From Alphaproteobacteria bacterium (GTDB lineage Bacteria; Pseudomonadota; Alphaproteobacteria; Micropepsales; Micropepsaceae), in the NCBI GenBank assembly GCA_028871345.1, contig JAGWNK010000013.1, positions 25,648 to 89,647 of the forward strand: a stretch of DNA of 64,000 nucleotides, given 5' to 3'. The position numbers were made by a program, and so were the translations under genes. Positions 26,259-63,850 of this stretch are shown here, piece after piece. Under the pieces are notes generated by a model. The model did no database searches and was not told the origin of the DNA. It saw nothing but the letters and a program-made list of their open reading frames with translations. The number at the start of each line of letters is the position of its first letter. Position 1 is the stretch's first letter.

Positions 26259-27008
26259 TCAGAGAACGGTAAGCATTCCTGCGACCAGCGGGTGGCGGAC
26301 AATGTCGGCCTCCCCAAGCCGAACCACCGCGATATCAGGAACCTTCTCCAGCCGCTCGGCGACATCGCGCAGACCCGACAACCCGGCCAGCAGGTCGGTC
26401 TGGTCCGGATCGCCCGTCAGAACCATGGTCGAACGCCAGCCCAAGCGCGTCAGCAGCATCTTGAGCTGGCCATACGTGCAGTTCTGCGCCTCGTCGATGA
26501 CGACGAAGCAGTCGTTCAGGGTTCGACCGCGCATGTAGGCGACCGGCGCGACCTCGATCACGCCTTCGGCAACGAGCGCCTTCAGCCGCTTGGTGCCCAG
26601 CCGCTCGGTCAACGCGTCGTAGAGCGGCCGCAGATAGGGTGCCAGCTTGTCCTGAAGGTCACCCGGCAGGAACCCGAGGCTTTCCCCGGCCTCCACGGCC
26701 GGCCGCGACAGGACGATGCGGCCGACGCGTCCGGCTTCGAGGGCTTCGACCGCCTTGGCCACGGCGAGATAGGTTTTTCCGGTTCCGGCGGGCCCCAGCG
26801 CCAACGAAACCGCGCGCTCGTCGATGGCATTCAGCAGCCGCTGCTGACCCGGGCTCATGGCCCGGATGTTCTTTACGTATTTTCGATCGCGCGCGTCGCT
26901 TTCGCGAGGGCTCCACCCCGATCGCCCGGGAAACAGGGGGCGGACATTTTCGTCATCCGATGCTGCGATGGACTCTCTGCTCTTGTAACGCGCGGAACGC
27001 TTGGCCAT
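26259..27008 (-). CDS. phoH: PhoH-like ATPase
   Basis: A 249-residue P-loop ATPase of the PhoH family, thought to be linked to RNA metabolism. Walker A is GPAGTGKT (72-79), Walker B is CFVVIDEAQN, with the family motif SRPAVEAGESLGFLPGDLQDKL between them and TGDPDQTDLL after them. ATG 27008 follows AGGGAG at good spacing; an in-frame upstream start at 27098 is not needed. This is the short form without an N-terminal PIN domain and without the ybeY gene next to it, so it is the PhoH2/PhoH-like class rather than the YbeZ partner of YbeY. Confidence 0.88.
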   Translation of the reverse strand: MAKRSARYKSRESIAASDDENVRPLFPGRSGWSPRESDARDRKYVKNIRAMSPGQQRLLNAIDERAVSLALGPAGTGKTYLAVAKAVEALEAGRVGRIVLSRPAVEAGESLGFLPGDLQDKLAPYLRPLYDALTERLGTKRLKALVAEGVIEVAPVAYMRGRTLNDCFVVIDEAQNCTYGQLKMLLTRLGWRSTMVLTGDPDQTDLLAGLSGLRDVAERLEKVPDIAVVRLGEADIVRHPLVAGMLTVL

Positions 27009-27239
27009 GGATACTCCCTGGTCAAAGAACAAACGCCGATGGATGTGGATGCGAGGAGGCGGGGTACGCCGCTGAAACCGGAGATCTGCAAAGTGCAACG
27101 CCGCACTATGATCGTGCCCCTGGGCCGAATCGACCGACCGATTTCAGGATACCAGAACTGTGAAGCGACGGACCGGAATTTTCATCGCCAAACGCGACAT
27201 CGGCCGTCACAATGGCATGGCAGAATGCGGAGTTTCCGA

Positions 27240-45937: not shown

Positions 45938-47404
<1,467 letters not shown>

Positions 47405-58113: not shown

Positions 58114-58779
58114 ATGGACTACATCGTGCTCATCATCTGGGGGGTTGTGATCGGGCTGATTGCGGCAATCCCGATTGGCCCCGTGAATTTGATCTGCATC
58201 CGCCGCACGTTGCAGGGGGGCTCGCTCACGGGTTTCATTTCCGGCCTGGGGGCGGCTGTTGGGGATGGCTTGTTCGCGGCCGTGACGGGCTTTGGCCTCA
58301 CCGCCATACGGCAGCTTATCGCCGGTTACTCCGTCATTCTTCAGCTAATCGGCGGCCTGCTTTTGCTTACGATCGGCATCCGCACGTTCTATGCGCCGCC
58401 TCCGCCGCGCTTCACCGAAAGCCTTTCGGCCACCAATGGCGGGGCCAAAGCGAAAATGTCGCCGGTGCGAGCGATAGCCTCCACGTTTGCGCTGACGATC
58501 ACGAATCCGGCGACCTTGATCTGGTTTTCTGCCTGGTTCGCGAGTGCCACAGCGCTCGCCGGCGACTCGCCGACGTTTCTCGAGGCGGCCTTCGTCGTGG
58601 CGGGTGTGTTCGCGGGGTCGGCGACATGGTGGCTGACGTTGACAACCGGGGTGGGTCTTCTCCATGCCAGGATCGATGACAAGATCGTCCGGCGAATCAA
58701 TGAGGCCTCGGGAGTCCTTGTGGTCCTGTTCGGCATCGGTGTCTTGGGCCACCTGATCTGGGTCCACATCTTCCGCTGA
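58114..58779 (+). CDS. LysE/RhtB-type exporter
   Basis: A 221-residue inner-membrane protein with six hydrophobic segments (about 4-24, 40-60, 66-88, 118-140, 148-172 and 195-218). The N-terminal motif GLIAAIPIGPVNLICIRRTLQGG and the LTITNPATLIWFSAWF motif are diagnostic for the LysE superfamily (amino-acid or related efflux). Substrate unknown. Confidence 0.85.
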   Translation: MDYIVLIIWGVVIGLIAAIPIGPVNLICIRRTLQGGSLTGFISGLGAAVGDGLFAAVTGFGLTAIRQLIAGYSVILQLIGGLLLLTIGIRTFYAPPPPRFTESLSATNGGAKAKMSPVRAIASTFALTITNPATLIWFSAWFASATALAGDSPTFLEAAFVVAGVFAGSATWWLTLTTGVGLLHARIDDKIVRRINEASGVLVVLFGIGVLGHLIWVHIFR

Positions 58780-58913
58780 TTGGGCGCGATCCGCTGTTAC
58801 ACGCACGGCGTGTATTGCGGCCGTAACCATAGGTCGCGGCACGGCTCCAATTCGTCGCAAGGCTATGCCATCCTTTTACGGCTGAGGGTTGCGACCCTTG
58901 GGGCGGGGGGATC

Positions 58914-60164
58914 ATGACGTCCGAGATCGCGTTGATGAACCAGCGCGCCGTGGCCCTGGCAGCCGATTCTGCCGTCACCTTGATCGACGGGGGTACCGTC
59001 GTCGTGCGCAATGATCAGCGCAAGCTGTTCAATTTGGGCGCCGGGTTGCCGGTCGGCGTGATGTTTTTCGGCGTGGCCGACCTCATGGGCCACCCCTGGG
59101 AAGGCCTGATCGAGCACTTCCAGGCGCAGGGCAAAGTCGCGCCGCTTCCGCATGTCCGTGACCACGCGGCCGCATTCACGGCCATCCTCGACCATCTCGA
59201 GGAGTTCTTTCCGCGCGAACGGCAGAAAGACGAGTACAAACGCCTGCTGGCCTCGGTGTTCCGCTATATCTTCCATCTGGCTCAGTACCTGAAGGATCTG
59301 GGTGGAAGTGACCGGGCGCAGTTGGCCGACAGCGTCATCCTGAAAGAGGCCATCGACCTCATCTGGCGCGACTATCAGTTTCGGGACGATGGCAGTCCGC
59401 GCCGCGACCTGCCTTGCTTTCCGCCAGGCTTCGGCGCGCAGGTGGCGCGAGAGTATGCCACCACCATCGACGAATTGATCGACTACGGCTTCTCGGGTTT
59501 TGCCCTGGATGCGGCTACGCGGCAGCACTTGCGCGAAATCGCAGTGATGTGCGTGGTGAAGGATCTTTTCCTGGAGGATGTCACCGGTCTCGTCTTCGCG
59601 GGCTTCGGAACCGCCGAACGTTACCCGGCCGTCAGCACGTACTTCCTGTCGGCGGTCGTCGGCGGCATCGCCAAACGGGCCGAGGTCAGCACCGATGCGA
59701 TCGATAACGAAGTTCGCTCCAAGATTCGCGTTTTTGCCGATTGCGAAGCGACCACCGCCTTCATCCGCGGCATCGATTACGGGCTGGAGCGCCGGATCTA
59801 CACCACGATCCAGACGATGATGCGTGGCCTTGTGGACCACGTGGTCGGCGCCTTTGTGGATGTCGAGGCTGCACAACGCGATGCTGTGCGGCGACGGTTC
59901 CATTCACAGTATCTGGGCCAGTATTTCTCGACTTTCCAGAACATGATCAGCGATTATCAGCAGCAAGTTTACATCAACCCGATTCTGCGCGTGTTGGAGA
60001 TCGCGGGGCGGCAGGAACTGGCCGAGACGGCGCGGGAACTGATTGCGCTCAATGTGTTCAAGAAGCGCATCATGGCCCAGCAACAGACAGTCGGTGGCGC
60101 CATTGATGTGGCGACGATCAGCCGGGAAACCGGCTTTCAATGGTTCACCAGGCAGGGAGGCTGA
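58914..60164 (+). CDS. Proteasome-like Ntn-hydrolase protein
   Basis: A 416-residue protein whose ends resemble proteasome beta subunits. It begins Met-Thr2-Ser-Glu-Ile; removal of Met would expose Thr as an N-terminal nucleophile. ALAADSAVT places Asp18 exactly 16 residues after Thr2, as Asp17 follows Thr1 in proteasomes, and Lys37 in RKLFNLG is near the Lys33 position. The C-terminus has ETARELIALNVFKKRI and TVGGAIDVATISR, a block I recall from uncharacterised proteasome-like proteins. About 130 helical residues (roughly 75-205) appear inserted between the halves, with a second half GLVFAGFGTAERYPAVSTYF. GGGGGG precedes the ATG, just after a small hairpin (58885-58898). No ATPase partner (HslU, Mpa) is adjacent. 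Confidence 0.72.
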   Translation: MTSEIALMNQRAVALAADSAVTLIDGGTVVVRNDQRKLFNLGAGLPVGVMFFGVADLMGHPWEGLIEHFQAQGKVAPLPHVRDHAAAFTAILDHLEEFFPRERQKDEYKRLLASVFRYIFHLAQYLKDLGGSDRAQLADSVILKEAIDLIWRDYQFRDDGSPRRDLPCFPPGFGAQVAREYATTIDELIDYGFSGFALDAATRQHLREIAVMCVVKDLFLEDVTGLVFAGFGTAERYPAVSTYFLSAVVGGIAKRAEVSTDAIDNEVRSKIRVFADCEATTAFIRGIDYGLERRIYTTIQTMMRGLVDHVVGAFVDVEAAQRDAVRRRFHSQYLGQYFSTFQNMISDYQQQVYINPILRVLEIAGRQELAETARELIALNVFKKRIMAQQQTVGGAIDVATISRETGFQWFTRQGG

Positions 60165-60165
60165 A

Positions 60166-60525
60166 TTGGCGCCTGAGAAGACGGCCCGCGCGCCGCTCGC
60201 AGAAGGAGCCGAACGCTTCGCACGCATCGTTCGGAGTGTGAAGGAAAGCCAGCGCGCCCGGACGGGCGCACCGGTGCTGGCCCCCGGATCCGACACCTAC
60301 ACCCTGAGCCCGGAAGAGGCCTGGGCCCGAAAGTACACAACGCACTGTATCGGGCCGGTCTGCTACCCTCCGTTGCCCCAGGCTCCATTTGCCCGGCAGG
60401 GCGAACCGCCCAAGATCCGGGATCGTGCCGTCCCGGTCGAGGAAAGGCCCCAATTGCAGTCCATTGGCCAGACCATCGGCAAACCGCTGCGCCGCTCCTG
60501 GCTTGGCCTATTCCGCGGCCGTTGA
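60166..60525 (+). CDS. Small protein coupled to the proteasome-like gene
   Basis: A 119-residue protein of unknown family. I infer a TTG start at 60166, one base after the upstream stop and preceded by GGGAGG at 6 bases. Features: a charged helix (about 12-32), a segment LSPEEAWARKYTTHCIGPVCYPPLP with Cys61 and Cys66, a Pro-rich middle, and a basic C-terminus (KPLRRSWLGLFRGR). It may be a partner, inhibitor or substrate of the upstream protein; this is inference from position only. Confidence 0.6.
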   Translation: MAPEKTARAPLAEGAERFARIVRSVKESQRARTGAPVLAPGSDTYTLSPEEAWARKYTTHCIGPVCYPPLPQAPFARQGEPPKIRDRAVPVEERPQLQSIGQTIGKPLRRSWLGLFRGR

Positions 60526-60624
60526 ACCCACATGCACCGCACACTAAGGGTAAATCCCGCGCCAACTGGCCCGGGAATGAGGTATTGTCTAGAAACCCCC
60601 ACTTTGAAAGGGAGCTGGAGGAAC

Positions 60625-61170
60625 ATGCGCCGAGGATTTCTGATGACCATACTGATGGTGCTGGCCGCCGCGTCCGCGCAGGCGGCGCCGGATCCGGCCC
60701 TCAGTGCGGCGGCCAACAAGGCTTTCCTGGCGAACTTCGCCAAGCAGCAGGGAGTCCAGGTCAGGCCCGACGGGCTGGAATATAGGATACTGCATAACGG
60801 CTTCGGCTCGAGGCCGAGCCTGCAGGACTACGCAACCGTCTACTACACCGGCAAGTTGATCAACGGGAAGGTATTTGACGGCACCGAAGAAGGCATGCCG
60901 AGCCGTTTCAAGGTCAACAGTCTCATTGCCGGCTGGTCCGAAGCCCTGTCGTTGATGCGTGTCGGCGACAAGTGGGAGGTCGTGATACCGTCTTCGCTGG
61001 CATACGGCGAAGCAGGTACGCCCGACGGCGCCGTGCCGCCGAACCAGACTTTGATATTCACCGTCGAACTCGTGAAAGTCGTGCCGCCGAAACTGCGCCC
61101 CGCCGATCCCAACAACCCGGACGACAAGCACGCCGGCGAAGATCTCGGGCCCGACGACGGCGACAATTGA
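60625..61170 (+). CDS. Exported FKBP-type peptidyl-prolyl isomerase
   Basis: A 181-residue protein with an N-terminal signal peptide (about 1-22, ending near ASAQAAPD). A short helical region precedes an FKBP domain (about 58-155): YATVYYTGKLINGKVFDGTEEG, VIAGW-like LIAGWSEALSLMRVGDKWEVVIPSSLAYGE, and AVPPNQTLIFTVELVKV. A Pro/Asp-rich C-terminal tail follows. It assists protein folding in the periplasm. ATG 60625 follows GGAGG. Confidence 0.92.
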   Translation: MRRGFLMTILMVLAAASAQAAPDPALSAAANKAFLANFAKQQGVQVRPDGLEYRILHNGFGSRPSLQDYATVYYTGKLINGKVFDGTEEGMPSRFKVNSLIAGWSEALSLMRVGDKWEVVIPSSLAYGEAGTPDGAVPPNQTLIFTVELVKVVPPKLRPADPNNPDDKHAGEDLGPDDGDN

Positions 61171-61192: not shown

Positions 61193-63850
61193 GTGCTGAG
61201 ATTCCTGCGGTTTGCCATTCTGCGACGCTTCAGCAGCGGAACGTTGCGGATCGCGCTGGCGTTGTGTCTTGTGGTCGGTGCCAGCGCGCTGTTCTGGGCA
61301 AGCCGTGACTTCACGCTCGTAGCCCCCGACTGGGACGGCTTGGTGCGGGGCGTCACCTACAATCCCAGCCACGTCTATTCCCAAGGACAATCCAAGCATA
61401 TCTCGCCCGAACGCATCGACTCCGACATGGCGCAGCTGTCGCGGATCACGGGCCACGTGCGCACGTACACCGTCTCGGGCGGCATGGAGAAGGTGCCCGA
61501 GATTGCGCGCCGTCATGGCCTTTCAGTTTCGCTCGGCATCTGGATCAGCGCTGACCTCGAGCAGAACGAGAAGGAGATCGATACCGCCCTCAAGGTCATT
61601 CTCGCCAATCGCCGGGTGATCGATCGTGTGATCGTCGGCAACGAATCCGTGATGCGGGGGGACGTCACCTCGGACCAATTGAACGCCTATATACGCCGCG
61701 TGCGCGACGCCTTGCCGGCGCGCATCAAGGTCACCACCGCCGAGACTTGGTCCACTTGGCTGCTGCACCCTGAAATCGGCCAGTATTGCGACGTGATTTT
61801 CGTCCATCTGTTGCCGTACTGGGAGGGCTCGGATGTGCGGGATGCGCTGGGCTTCGTGGGGCGGCACTTTGACATGGTGCAGGAGGAATTCCCGGACAAG
61901 CCGATCATTATCGGCGAAGTGGGCTGGCCTTCGGAAGGTCGCACGCGCAATGGTGCTGAAGCGTCCCTCGCCAACGAAGCCTATTTCATCCGCAGCTTCG
62001 TCGAGATGGCGCTCGACAAGGGTTACGACTACTACATCATCGAAGCCTATGATCAGCCCTGGAAGGCGGCGGTCGAAGAGGCCGGAGGCAGCGCCGGTGC
62101 CCATTGGGGGCTGTTCGATGCTTCCGGTCAGCCGAAATTCCCTTTCACCGGCATGTTGCGCTCCTTCCCGCAGTGGCGCAGCTACACGCTCGTCGCCGCA
62201 GTCCTGACGCTGTTCCTCGGACTGTTCATCCTGGGCAGCATGCCAAGGGTACGTAGCGCGGGCTACATCGTGATGGGAGGCTTGGTGGCGCTCGTGACGA
62301 CGGGGCTGTTACTTCTCATCGACGCCACGACCCTCAATTACATCGATCCGGCCGACGTCGTAATGATTCTGGCGATGTCGCCGCTGGTTCTTCTGGCATC
62401 GGCTGTCATTCTGACGGAAGGTATCGAGCTTGCGGCAAGCCTGTGGCGCGTCGATCGGCGCACGGTGCGTGCCTCGATCCCTGAGGCCGGCCCGCGCGTG
62501 TCCATCCATGTGCCATGCTACAACGAACCTGCGTCGATGGTGATCGACACGTTGAACGCGCTGGCAATGCTGGACTACGAGAATTTTGAAGTCATTGTCC
62601 TCGACAACAACACGCCCGAGCCCGAGACATGGAAACCGGTCGAGGCGCATTGTGCGGCGCTTGGCCCACGTTTCCGCTTCTTCCATTTTGAGGGCGTGCA
62701 AGGCTTCAAGGCAGGCGCGCTCAACATCGCGCTCGAACTGACCGATCCCGAGGCGCGCTACGTGGCCGTGATCGACAGCGACTATCGCGTCGATCCGAAC
62801 TGGATCCGGCTTGCGCTGCCGCTGTTCGCCGACGCCGGCATCGCTCTGGTGCAGGGGCCGCAGGACTACAGCGACGCGCAGGGCAGCCTGTTCAAGGCAA
62901 TGGCCTACGAGGAGTATCGCGGTTTCTTCCACATCGGCATGGTGGAGCGCAACGAGCACAACGCCATCATCCAGCACGGCACGATGACTATCGTGCGCCG
63001 CGATGCCCTGGAAGAGGTCGGCCGTTGGAGCACTTGGTGCATCACCGAGGACACGGAACTCGGGCTGCGCCTGTTCGAAGCAGGCTACGGGGCCGCCTAC
63101 ATTCCGCAGAGCATGGGGCAGGGGTTGATCCCCGACACTCTGAAGGCCTTCCAGAGCCAGCGCTATCGCTGGGTCTATGGCGCGATGCAGATCCTGAAGC
63201 GCCACGCTGGCGCGATCTTCTCCGGCAGGACGCAGCTGAGTTGGGCGCAGCGCTATCAATTTCTGTCGGGCTGGCTACCTTGGATTTCGGACGGTCTTGG
63301 CATGGTTGTGACCTTCATCGCGCTCGCCTGGACCTTCGCCATGTGGACGGCACCGCGCTATGTCGATGTGCCGATGCCGGTGCTGTCGGCGGCCGCGCTG
63401 GCACTGTTCGCGGCCAAGATCCTGAAGACGCTGCTGCTGTATCCGCAGAAGGTCGGTTCCGGCATGAAGGGCGCCGTGATGGCGTCCGTAGCCGGCCTGT
63501 CGTTGACGCATACGGTCGGCAAGGCTGTGTGGGCTGGTCTCTTCACATCCGGCAAACCGTTTCTGCGCACGCCCAAGTGTGCCGACCAGGCGCTTTTGAG
63601 CCAGGCACTGCGCAGCGTGTGGCAAGAGACAACTCTCTTCGTGTTCTGCGTTCTCGCCGTGCTTTCGGTAATGTCCACGGGCCGTGCCGACGATCCGGCA
63701 GCACTCTTGTGGATCGTCATGGTCTGCGTGCAGAGCCTGCCGTACGCCGCCACCGTTGCCACTGCCGCGCTGAGCGCCCGTTCCTTGGCGAGGGACCGTC
63801 ACAAACCGACGCTTCCCGCAACGCCACCGTCGCTGGCCAAGGCCGCGTAG
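61193..63850 (+). CDS. GH17-GT2 beta-glucan synthase (NdvB/NdvC-like)
   Basis: An 885-residue bifunctional protein. Residues about 40-325 form a GH17-type glycosidase-like domain with catalytic acid Glu151 (IVGNESV) and nucleophile Glu242 (IIGEVGWPSEG). After membrane segments (about 330-410), residues 430-670 form a GT2 glucosyltransferase with Asp471, DSD (528-530), TED (618-620) and QRYRW (656-660); further membrane helices follow. The fusion matches enzymes making cyclic or branched beta-1,3/1,6-glucans at the inner membrane. The start is GTG 61193, 22 bases after the FKBP gene, so the two may be co-expressed. Confidence 0.9.
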   Translation: MLRFLRFAILRRFSSGTLRIALALCLVVGASALFWASRDFTLVAPDWDGLVRGVTYNPSHVYSQGQSKHISPERIDSDMAQLSRITGHVRTYTVSGGMEKVPEIARRHGLSVSLGIWISADLEQNEKEIDTALKVILANRRVIDRVIVGNESVMRGDVTSDQLNAYIRRVRDALPARIKVTTAETWSTWLLHPEIGQYCDVIFVHLLPYWEGSDVRDALGFVGRHFDMVQEEFPDKPIIIGEVGWPSEGRTRNGAEASLANEAYFIRSFVEMALDKGYDYYIIEAYDQPWKAAVEEAGGSAGAHWGLFDASGQPKFPFTGMLRSFPQWRSYTLVAAVLTLFLGLFILGSMPRVRSAGYIVMGGLVALVTTGLLLLIDATTLNYIDPADVVMILAMSPLVLLASAVILTEGIELAASLWRVDRRTVRASIPEAGPRVSIHVPCYNEPASMVIDTLNALAMLDYENFEVIVLDNNTPEPETWKPVEAHCAALGPRFRFFHFEGVQGFKAGALNIALELTDPEARYVAVIDSDYRVDPNWIRLALPLFADAGIALVQGPQDYSDAQGSLFKAMAYEEYRGFFHIGMVERNEHNAIIQHGTMTIVRRDALEEVGRWSTWCITEDTELGLRLFEAGYGAAYIPQSMGQGLIPDTLKAFQSQRYRWVYGAMQILKRHAGAIFSGRTQLSWAQRYQFLSGWLPWISDGLGMVVTFIALAWTFAMWTAPRYVDVPMPVLSAAALALFAAKILKTLLLYPQKVGSGMKGAVMASVAGLSLTHTVGKAVWAGLFTSGKPFLRTPKCADQALLSQALRSVWQETTLFVFCVLAVLSVMSTGRADDPAALLWIVMVCVQSLPYAATVATAALSARSLARDRHKPTLPATPPSLAKAA

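Follow-up and report, generated by a model that had tools for sequence, protein, structure and literature searches.

A gene for an enlarged proteasome-like hydrolase and a small gene directly behind it appear to form a two-gene module, in which an ATPase-independent N-terminal-threonine hydrolase would be controlled by a co-translated helical partner. We hold this reading at a little above even, with a probability of roughly 0.55. Both genes lie in a 64,000-nucleotide stretch of DNA, hereafter the window, from an alphaproteobacterium of the family Micropepsaceae (GenBank assembly GCA_028871345.1, contig JAGWNK010000013.1, positions 25,648 to 89,647). The product of the small gene likely controls the hydrolase or is processed by it. 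The proposed module comprises the following elements.

58914-60164, + strand: proteasome-like N-terminal nucleophile (Ntn) hydrolase gene, ATG start, 416 codons, TGA stop; product of 46.6 kDa with predicted catalytic residues Thr2, Asp18 and Lys37.
60156-60160, + strand: GGAGG, resembling a ribosome site; it lies within the 3' end of the hydrolase gene, and 5 bases separate it from the TTG of the partner gene.
60166-60525, + strand: partner gene, TTG start (inferred from alignment); product of 119 amino acids, 13.2 kDa, pI 10.4.

The open reading frame (ORF) of the hydrolase is a real conserved gene, far beyond chance, and occurs as a single copy in its own genome. A check of the ORF and its translation found no internal stop, and upstream the frame reached a stop at 58830 without an alternative in-frame start. 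The N terminus probably lies at Met1-Thr2. A 346-amino-acid ORF overlaps the gene on the opposite strand (58863-59903, - strand); nothing marking a gene was found there, and no search was made with that ORF. All the sequence features listed in an earlier note on this DNA were present, namely Met1-Thr2, Asp18, Lys37 and a TVGG...ISR block at residues 392 to 404 (TVGGAIDVATISR).

The residues named there as catalytic were nearly constant when conservation was checked among 163 distinct family proteins, the window's own included. Position 2 was Thr in 162 proteins and Ser in one (L208), while position 18 was Asp and position 37 was Lys in 163/163; Gly225 and Gly230 were also invariant. In assembling this set, L210 was removed as another protein (1 of 164 distinct), and L209, with a frame below the 300-amino-acid cut, was left out. 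Start codons in the family loci were picked by a T-x-E pattern. The constancy of Thr2 is no artefact of this choice because the pattern was missing in only 3 of 209 loci, one of which held another protein. Position 53, near the expected oxyanion residue, was Gly in the window protein; across the 163 proteins it was Gly 89 times and Asn 64 times, its equivalence to Gly47 being judged from sequence alone. In a different set, the 24-sequence alignment A1, P0076 had Asn at position 18, the starts of P0056 and P0070 were predicted seven residues late, and P0003 and P0037 had extra N-terminal residues.

The window hydrolase is predicted to have a proteasome-type Ntn fold (alpha-beta-beta-alpha), with equivalents of T1, D17 and K33 in register, as the note had proposed. 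In a structural superposition, residue 2 of the model fell on residue 1 of the matched chain, and hhalign against 19 HslV-like proteins paired D18 with HslV D17 and K37 with K33, in a weak match (E 0.008-0.01, probability 4-5%). Two helical insertions were found in the predicted model. The first, at residues about 91 to 223 (133 residues), corresponds to the insertion of about 130 residues already described in the note; the second, which the note had missed, lies between strands 269-275 and 397-403 (121 residues, within 276-396). It contains long helices at 289-313 and 319-363, which precede a helix at 366-387; the names H3 and H4 were assigned by us. No helix was seen past residue 387. Since Thr is residue 2, the claim that there is no propeptide was upheld. 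Methionine aminopeptidase alone would suffice to expose a Thr at this position, and the self-processing that the note had assumed is not supported.

The hydrolase and partner genes meet at TGA-A-TTG, with a one-base gap. The window partner aligned with the ORF at the same place in 21 related loci at 20-50% identity. Its C terminus is basic-aromatic (RRSWLGLFRGR), and Rhizomicrobium-type partners likewise end in such a stretch. Its predicted model showed one confident helix (residues 10 to 33), the rest being mostly of low confidence (predicted local distance difference test score [pLDDT] 65.5, predicted template modelling score [pTM] 0.30). Another small protein occupies the partner position in Parvularculaceae and Maricaulaceae. 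There, 28 of 32 aligned partners (of 50 clustered; L054-L110) terminated in G[IL]F preceded by basic residues, which is suggestive of a docking or membrane-binding tail. Judged from substitution patterns, the alphaproteobacterial partner is under purifying selection: the ratio of nonsynonymous to synonymous substitution rates (dN/dS) was 0.04-0.18 in 11 hand-picked alphaproteobacterial pairs, dS being above 1 in 6 of them. In the named-genome set (the best 80 of 312 relatives found by one peptide pattern), the downstream ORF at 74 of 80 loci fell into a homology cluster, of which there were three (with 50, 21 and 3 members). In phages and other phyla, the ORFs in the partner position were mostly of 34-73 amino acids, and the small follower was annotated as a gene in 4 of the 7 phage records inspected. 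A Pfam scan of five partners gave no match.

The association was quantified with a strict test, which called for a same-strand ORF of 40-200 amino acids starting -25 to +30 nt from the hydrolase stop and preceded by a ribosome-site match. It covered 157 loci, i.e., the 163 minus 6 too near contig ends. The test was passed by 128/157 family genes versus 103/679 other long ORFs in the same loci, a control rate that is approximate because a simple ORF caller supplied the genes for comparison. Passes by group were 68/80 for alphaproteobacterial-type, 46/59 for viral and 14/18 for other loci. Without the ribosome-site condition, the figures were 137/157 for family genes versus 233/679 for other ORFs.

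Within the genus of the source organism, the two genes were present and absent together. The hydrolase was found in 17 of 37 genomes of the genus, its own included, and in none of 24 further genomes from the class. The partner profile matched 18 of the 61 genomes searched, namely the 17 hydrolase carriers, always adjacent to the hydrolase, and G010; an intact partner occurred only beside the hydrolase. In G010, the match was a 33-34-residue piece of the partner C terminus between LysE and FKBP genes, and the hydrolase was gone (L252, G010:C46:39800-43200). This locus may be a deletion scar, with hydrolase and partner lost in one deletion, the order of events being our inference. The same two genes flank the module in the window:

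58114-58779, + strand: LysE-type translocator (PF01810).
60532-61170, + strand: FKBP-type prolyl isomerase (PF00254).

Because G010 keeps both side by side after loss of the module, LysE and FKBP were rejected as specific partners; LysE relatives also occur in genus members without the hydrolase. In G007:C16, G019:C399 and G033:C149, the LysE neighbour matched as two pieces in one longer open frame, an insertion-like arrangement. Farther along the window, an 885-amino-acid protein is encoded at positions 61193 to 63850. It has family 2 glycosyltransferase domains, together with a stretch resembling GH17 below the cut-off, and 17 of the 80 named loci also had a relative of this protein.

The hydrolase family is widespread. 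When 8000 candidates were scored, 566 proteins matched the window hydrolase at E<=0.001; among the best 120 of these, the close relatives were called "hypothetical protein" where named and came from Rhizomicrobium and other alphaproteobacterial metagenome-assembled genomes. The hydrolase was found in 10 of 398 genomes of its own phylum (own genome included), in 2 of 48 genomes of the class of G175 and in 3 of 198 genomes of the phylum of G457, the central genome being counted in the last two cases and two of the three being marginal. In named alphaproteobacterial genomes, it sits within recurring chromosomal synteny. The diverse family profile found relatives on 119 viral contigs, the best 80 of which made up the viral set; a scan of the viral contigs for close relatives with the window protein (P0001) alone found none. 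Relatives were also found in 13 phage records, 12 of them covering most of the protein, and in 10 plasmid records, of which 9 did so and H10 covered only a quarter. We inspected 7 of the phage records and 9 of the plasmid records (all but H7). On two plasmids, the gene copies (L216 and L217) were broken.

In the chromosome of E. coli COL60J (L273, NZ_CP092244.1, 2716804-2718322), the family gene sits immediately downstream of a helix-turn-helix gene, the presumed repressor of a recE/recT prophage. An unannotated 34-amino-acid ORF follows directly behind it. Of 5426 complete E. coli genomes, 13 carried this hydrolase copy, always on the chromosome; the window gene and two other viral copies had no E. 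coli match. The prophage is presumably Rac-like. Lambda keeps rexAB directly downstream of its repressor, and phages place accessory genes, some of them lysogen-expressed, at such sites. At 44 dereplicated viral loci, the nearest upstream ORF was on the same strand in 27 and on the opposite strand in 13; 4 had none in the record. Twenty same-strand upstream ORFs were scanned, out of 22 with usable size and distance (L164 and L188 were left out): 7 were repressor-like, 4 of lysis type and 1 a head gene, and 8 were unknown or without a match. In 2 of 3 inspected streptococcal satellites, the hydrolase and a small follower were the last genes of the record.

Among the 25 PHROG families listed (of 219), those matched by the 74 ORFs flanking the hydrolase in 32 of the 44 viral loci were mostly regulator and lysis families. 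The same ORFs matched 26 PADLOC families (25 listed), each in 1 or 2 ORFs, including RmrA, WYL, capH and candidate PDC models. These matches were scattered and many were regulators, and a defence-island context of the viral copies was not convincing. On four rhizobial plasmids (L211, L213, L215 and L217), the hydrolase was within a few genes of multiubiquitin and ThiF-family genes, and in three Rhizobium records of these plasmids a gene annotated as a Clp protease subunit was also near. We rejected multiubiquitin as a general partner because PF14452 was over the cut-off in 0 of 15 other hydrolase genomes; G314 gave two sub-cut-off matches.

If the module works as we propose, methionine aminopeptidase would take off Met1, and Thr2 would then serve as the nucleophile, helped by Lys37 and Asp18. 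The partner would bind by its single helix and would either admit substrates or block the site until needed. Fuchs, Alva and Lupas (2021; PMC8665760) described 22 new proteasome-like families, including enlarged homologues with multiple insertions (PMI). They argued that PMI insertions could clash with closed rings, and we propose that the insertions would keep the window hydrolase monomeric or in an open assembly. A bolder extension, which we regard as tentative and rather doubtful, is a widespread two-gene system shared by bacteria, phages and satellites. In it, a tiny helical partner would restrain a non-ring, ATPase-free homologue and let it go to cleave proteins, which in lysogens would exclude competing phages; if true, this would give the first gene partner for any enlarged proteasome homologue.

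Several observations weigh against the proposed module. The profile match to HslV is weak, and the top Foldseek row was modest (template modelling score 0.27 by query and 0.52 by target, root mean square deviation 15.8), the latter because of the helical insertions. The hydrolase start is a probable one only, because the NCBI annotation of the E. coli relative begins 33 codons upstream of Met-Thr. As to the partner, the control rate is approximate, as said above, and 29 loci out of 157 did not pass the strict test. When 17 loci without a candidate or without a ribosome site were rechecked, 10 had a ribosome-site-preceded ORF of 34-64 amino acids starting at -17 to +80 nt and L061 met the contig end, but the other six (L019, L020, L138, L183, L190 and L197) had no small ribosome-site-preceded ORF. 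The partner is also not recognisably homologous across deep splits. A homologous downstream ORF was found beside a hydrolase less than 80% identical at 104 of 157 loci, less than 60% identical at 47 and less than 40% identical at 2. Because homology fades with distance, the idea of a single partner throughout the family is founded on position, size and helix-like sequence, not on homology.

Other explanations were weighed against the same data. One possibility, which we consider unlikely, is that the partner is a substrate that is cut by the hydrolase, or whose end is ligated elsewhere as by connectase, its conserved alphaproteobacterial C termini being recognised or released. The partner is indeed small, encoded by the next gene, fast-changing, mostly of low model confidence and probably disordered, and both the G[IL]F ends and the basic-aromatic Rhizomicrobium-type ends would suit such a role. 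Connectase provides a precedent for a proteasome homologue acting in ligation instead of degradation (PMC8665760). However, conserved ends were seen only in alphaproteobacterial partners, phage partners of down to 34 amino acids ended differently, and no cleavage-site-like motif common to all partner sets was seen. Somewhat less improbable, yet still well short of an even chance, is a toxin-antitoxin-like or superinfection-exclusion module, whose hydrolase, once freed from the partner, would damage the cell or a phage entering it. It would agree with the viral, phage and plasmid copies (119 contigs, 13 and 10 records), with the rexAB-like location behind the COL60J repressor, with the 7 repressor-like and 4 lysis genes among 20 upstream viral ORFs, and with patchy presence in the genus and the deletion scar. 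On the other hand, PADLOC matches of the hydrolase were at chance level, those of the flanking ORFs were spread over 26 families and often regulators, phage sites also had head and unknown neighbours, some relatives had no clear partner, and the recurring synteny in named alphaproteobacterial genomes does not favour it.

That the small ORF is a passenger, functionally unlinked to the hydrolase, is very improbable. Homology between the partners of distant relatives is weak or absent, as such a passenger would predict, but the excess of strict-test passes (128/157 versus 103/679), the joint presence in 17/17 genomes with the joint-loss scar, and the overlapping or short gene spacing all argue against it. 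Least probable of all is a catalytically dead, structural protein resembling proteasome alpha subunits, which do not retain the Thr, Asp and Lys active-site residues. The split between Gly (89) and Asn (64) at position 53 would speak for it; the invariant Asp18 and Lys37 and nearly invariant Thr2 speak against it. The reading that we prefer, a hydrolase controlled by its small neighbour, could reveal a way of regulating a proteasome fold that needs no ATPase. A neighbour gene dedicated to the enzyme, and in this genus retained and lost along with it, gives a direct handle on the most populous PMI family. Its product could be co-purified with the hydrolase and assayed as a likely substrate or regulator, and the prophage position lends itself to phage-exclusion tests in laboratory E. 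coli.

As to known systems, no match in Pfam, NCBIfam, PADLOC or PDB sequences rose above chance level, whether the query was the protein, its profile or a set of 18 diverse members. PF00227 did not match P0001 and matched 1 of 18 diverse relatives at E 0.21; in the source genome it found one gene, on another contig and presumably HslV, in line with the note's placement of the hydrolase outside the HslV, 20S and Anbu families. When window ORFs of at least 150 amino acids were scanned for a Walker-A pattern, the only ones found were 45941-47404 (- strand, ATP synthase beta-like) and 26262-27143 (- strand, PhoH-like), names that are readings of motif context with no family search made; this agrees with the note's statement that no ATPase partner is nearby. 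The lack of a PF00227 match and of an AAA+ unfoldase by Walker-A pattern in the window speaks against HslV identity. HslV shares the D17/K33 catalytic register by the weak profile match, but it is a compact subunit paired with the HslU ATPase, unlike the enlarged window hydrolase. A 20S beta subunit, which would have a propeptide and a partner alpha subunit, does not fit either: Thr is residue 2 without a propeptide, and the single PF00227 gene of the genome is another one. Anbu carries at its C terminus a long helix, H5, that forms a coiled coil (PMC8665760); the window hydrolase does not fit this, its model having two insertions and no helix beyond residue 387. Absence of other families from the structural match list is uninformative. 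All 18 members of the diverse alignment matched phrog_5990 (P0001 at 4e-60), a phage protein family of unknown function; this is a sequence-family name only, and its listing gives no function and no partner.

Two described groups come closer. Like the window hydrolase, connectase is homologous to the proteasome, has a helical insertion and lacks an ATPase, but it is archaeal and its insertion lies between S3 and S4 (PMC8665760); the insertions of the window hydrolase sit elsewhere. PMI-4 (proteasome homologue with multiple insertions 4; cluster representative HDY66466.1) shares with the window hydrolase, according to the same article, a proteasome-like core, Thr1/Asp17/Lys33, no propeptide and no AAA+ partner. 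Its insertions, behind H1/H2 and between H3/H4, are both present in our model. Its wide bacterial spread and occurrence in phages are matched by the window family (13 phage records, 119 viral contigs), and it is the only PMI class marked for phages in Table 1 of that article; PMI-3 also carries both insertions, but its members are few and it is not marked for phages. The window hydrolase fits the PMI-4 class, as compared by described features, not by cluster sequences. The earlier interpretation stands as to fold, residues and family exclusion; its claim of self-processing is not supported, nor is that of novelty, since enlarged homologues with insertions were already catalogued as PMI in 2021, and it overlooked the gene directly downstream. 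The hydrolase is not of an unknown kind. What looks new is the partner: in the parts of the article used here, no suggestive gene context is reported for PMI-4 or the other new proteasome-like families, whereas a small gene stands behind most members of the window family.
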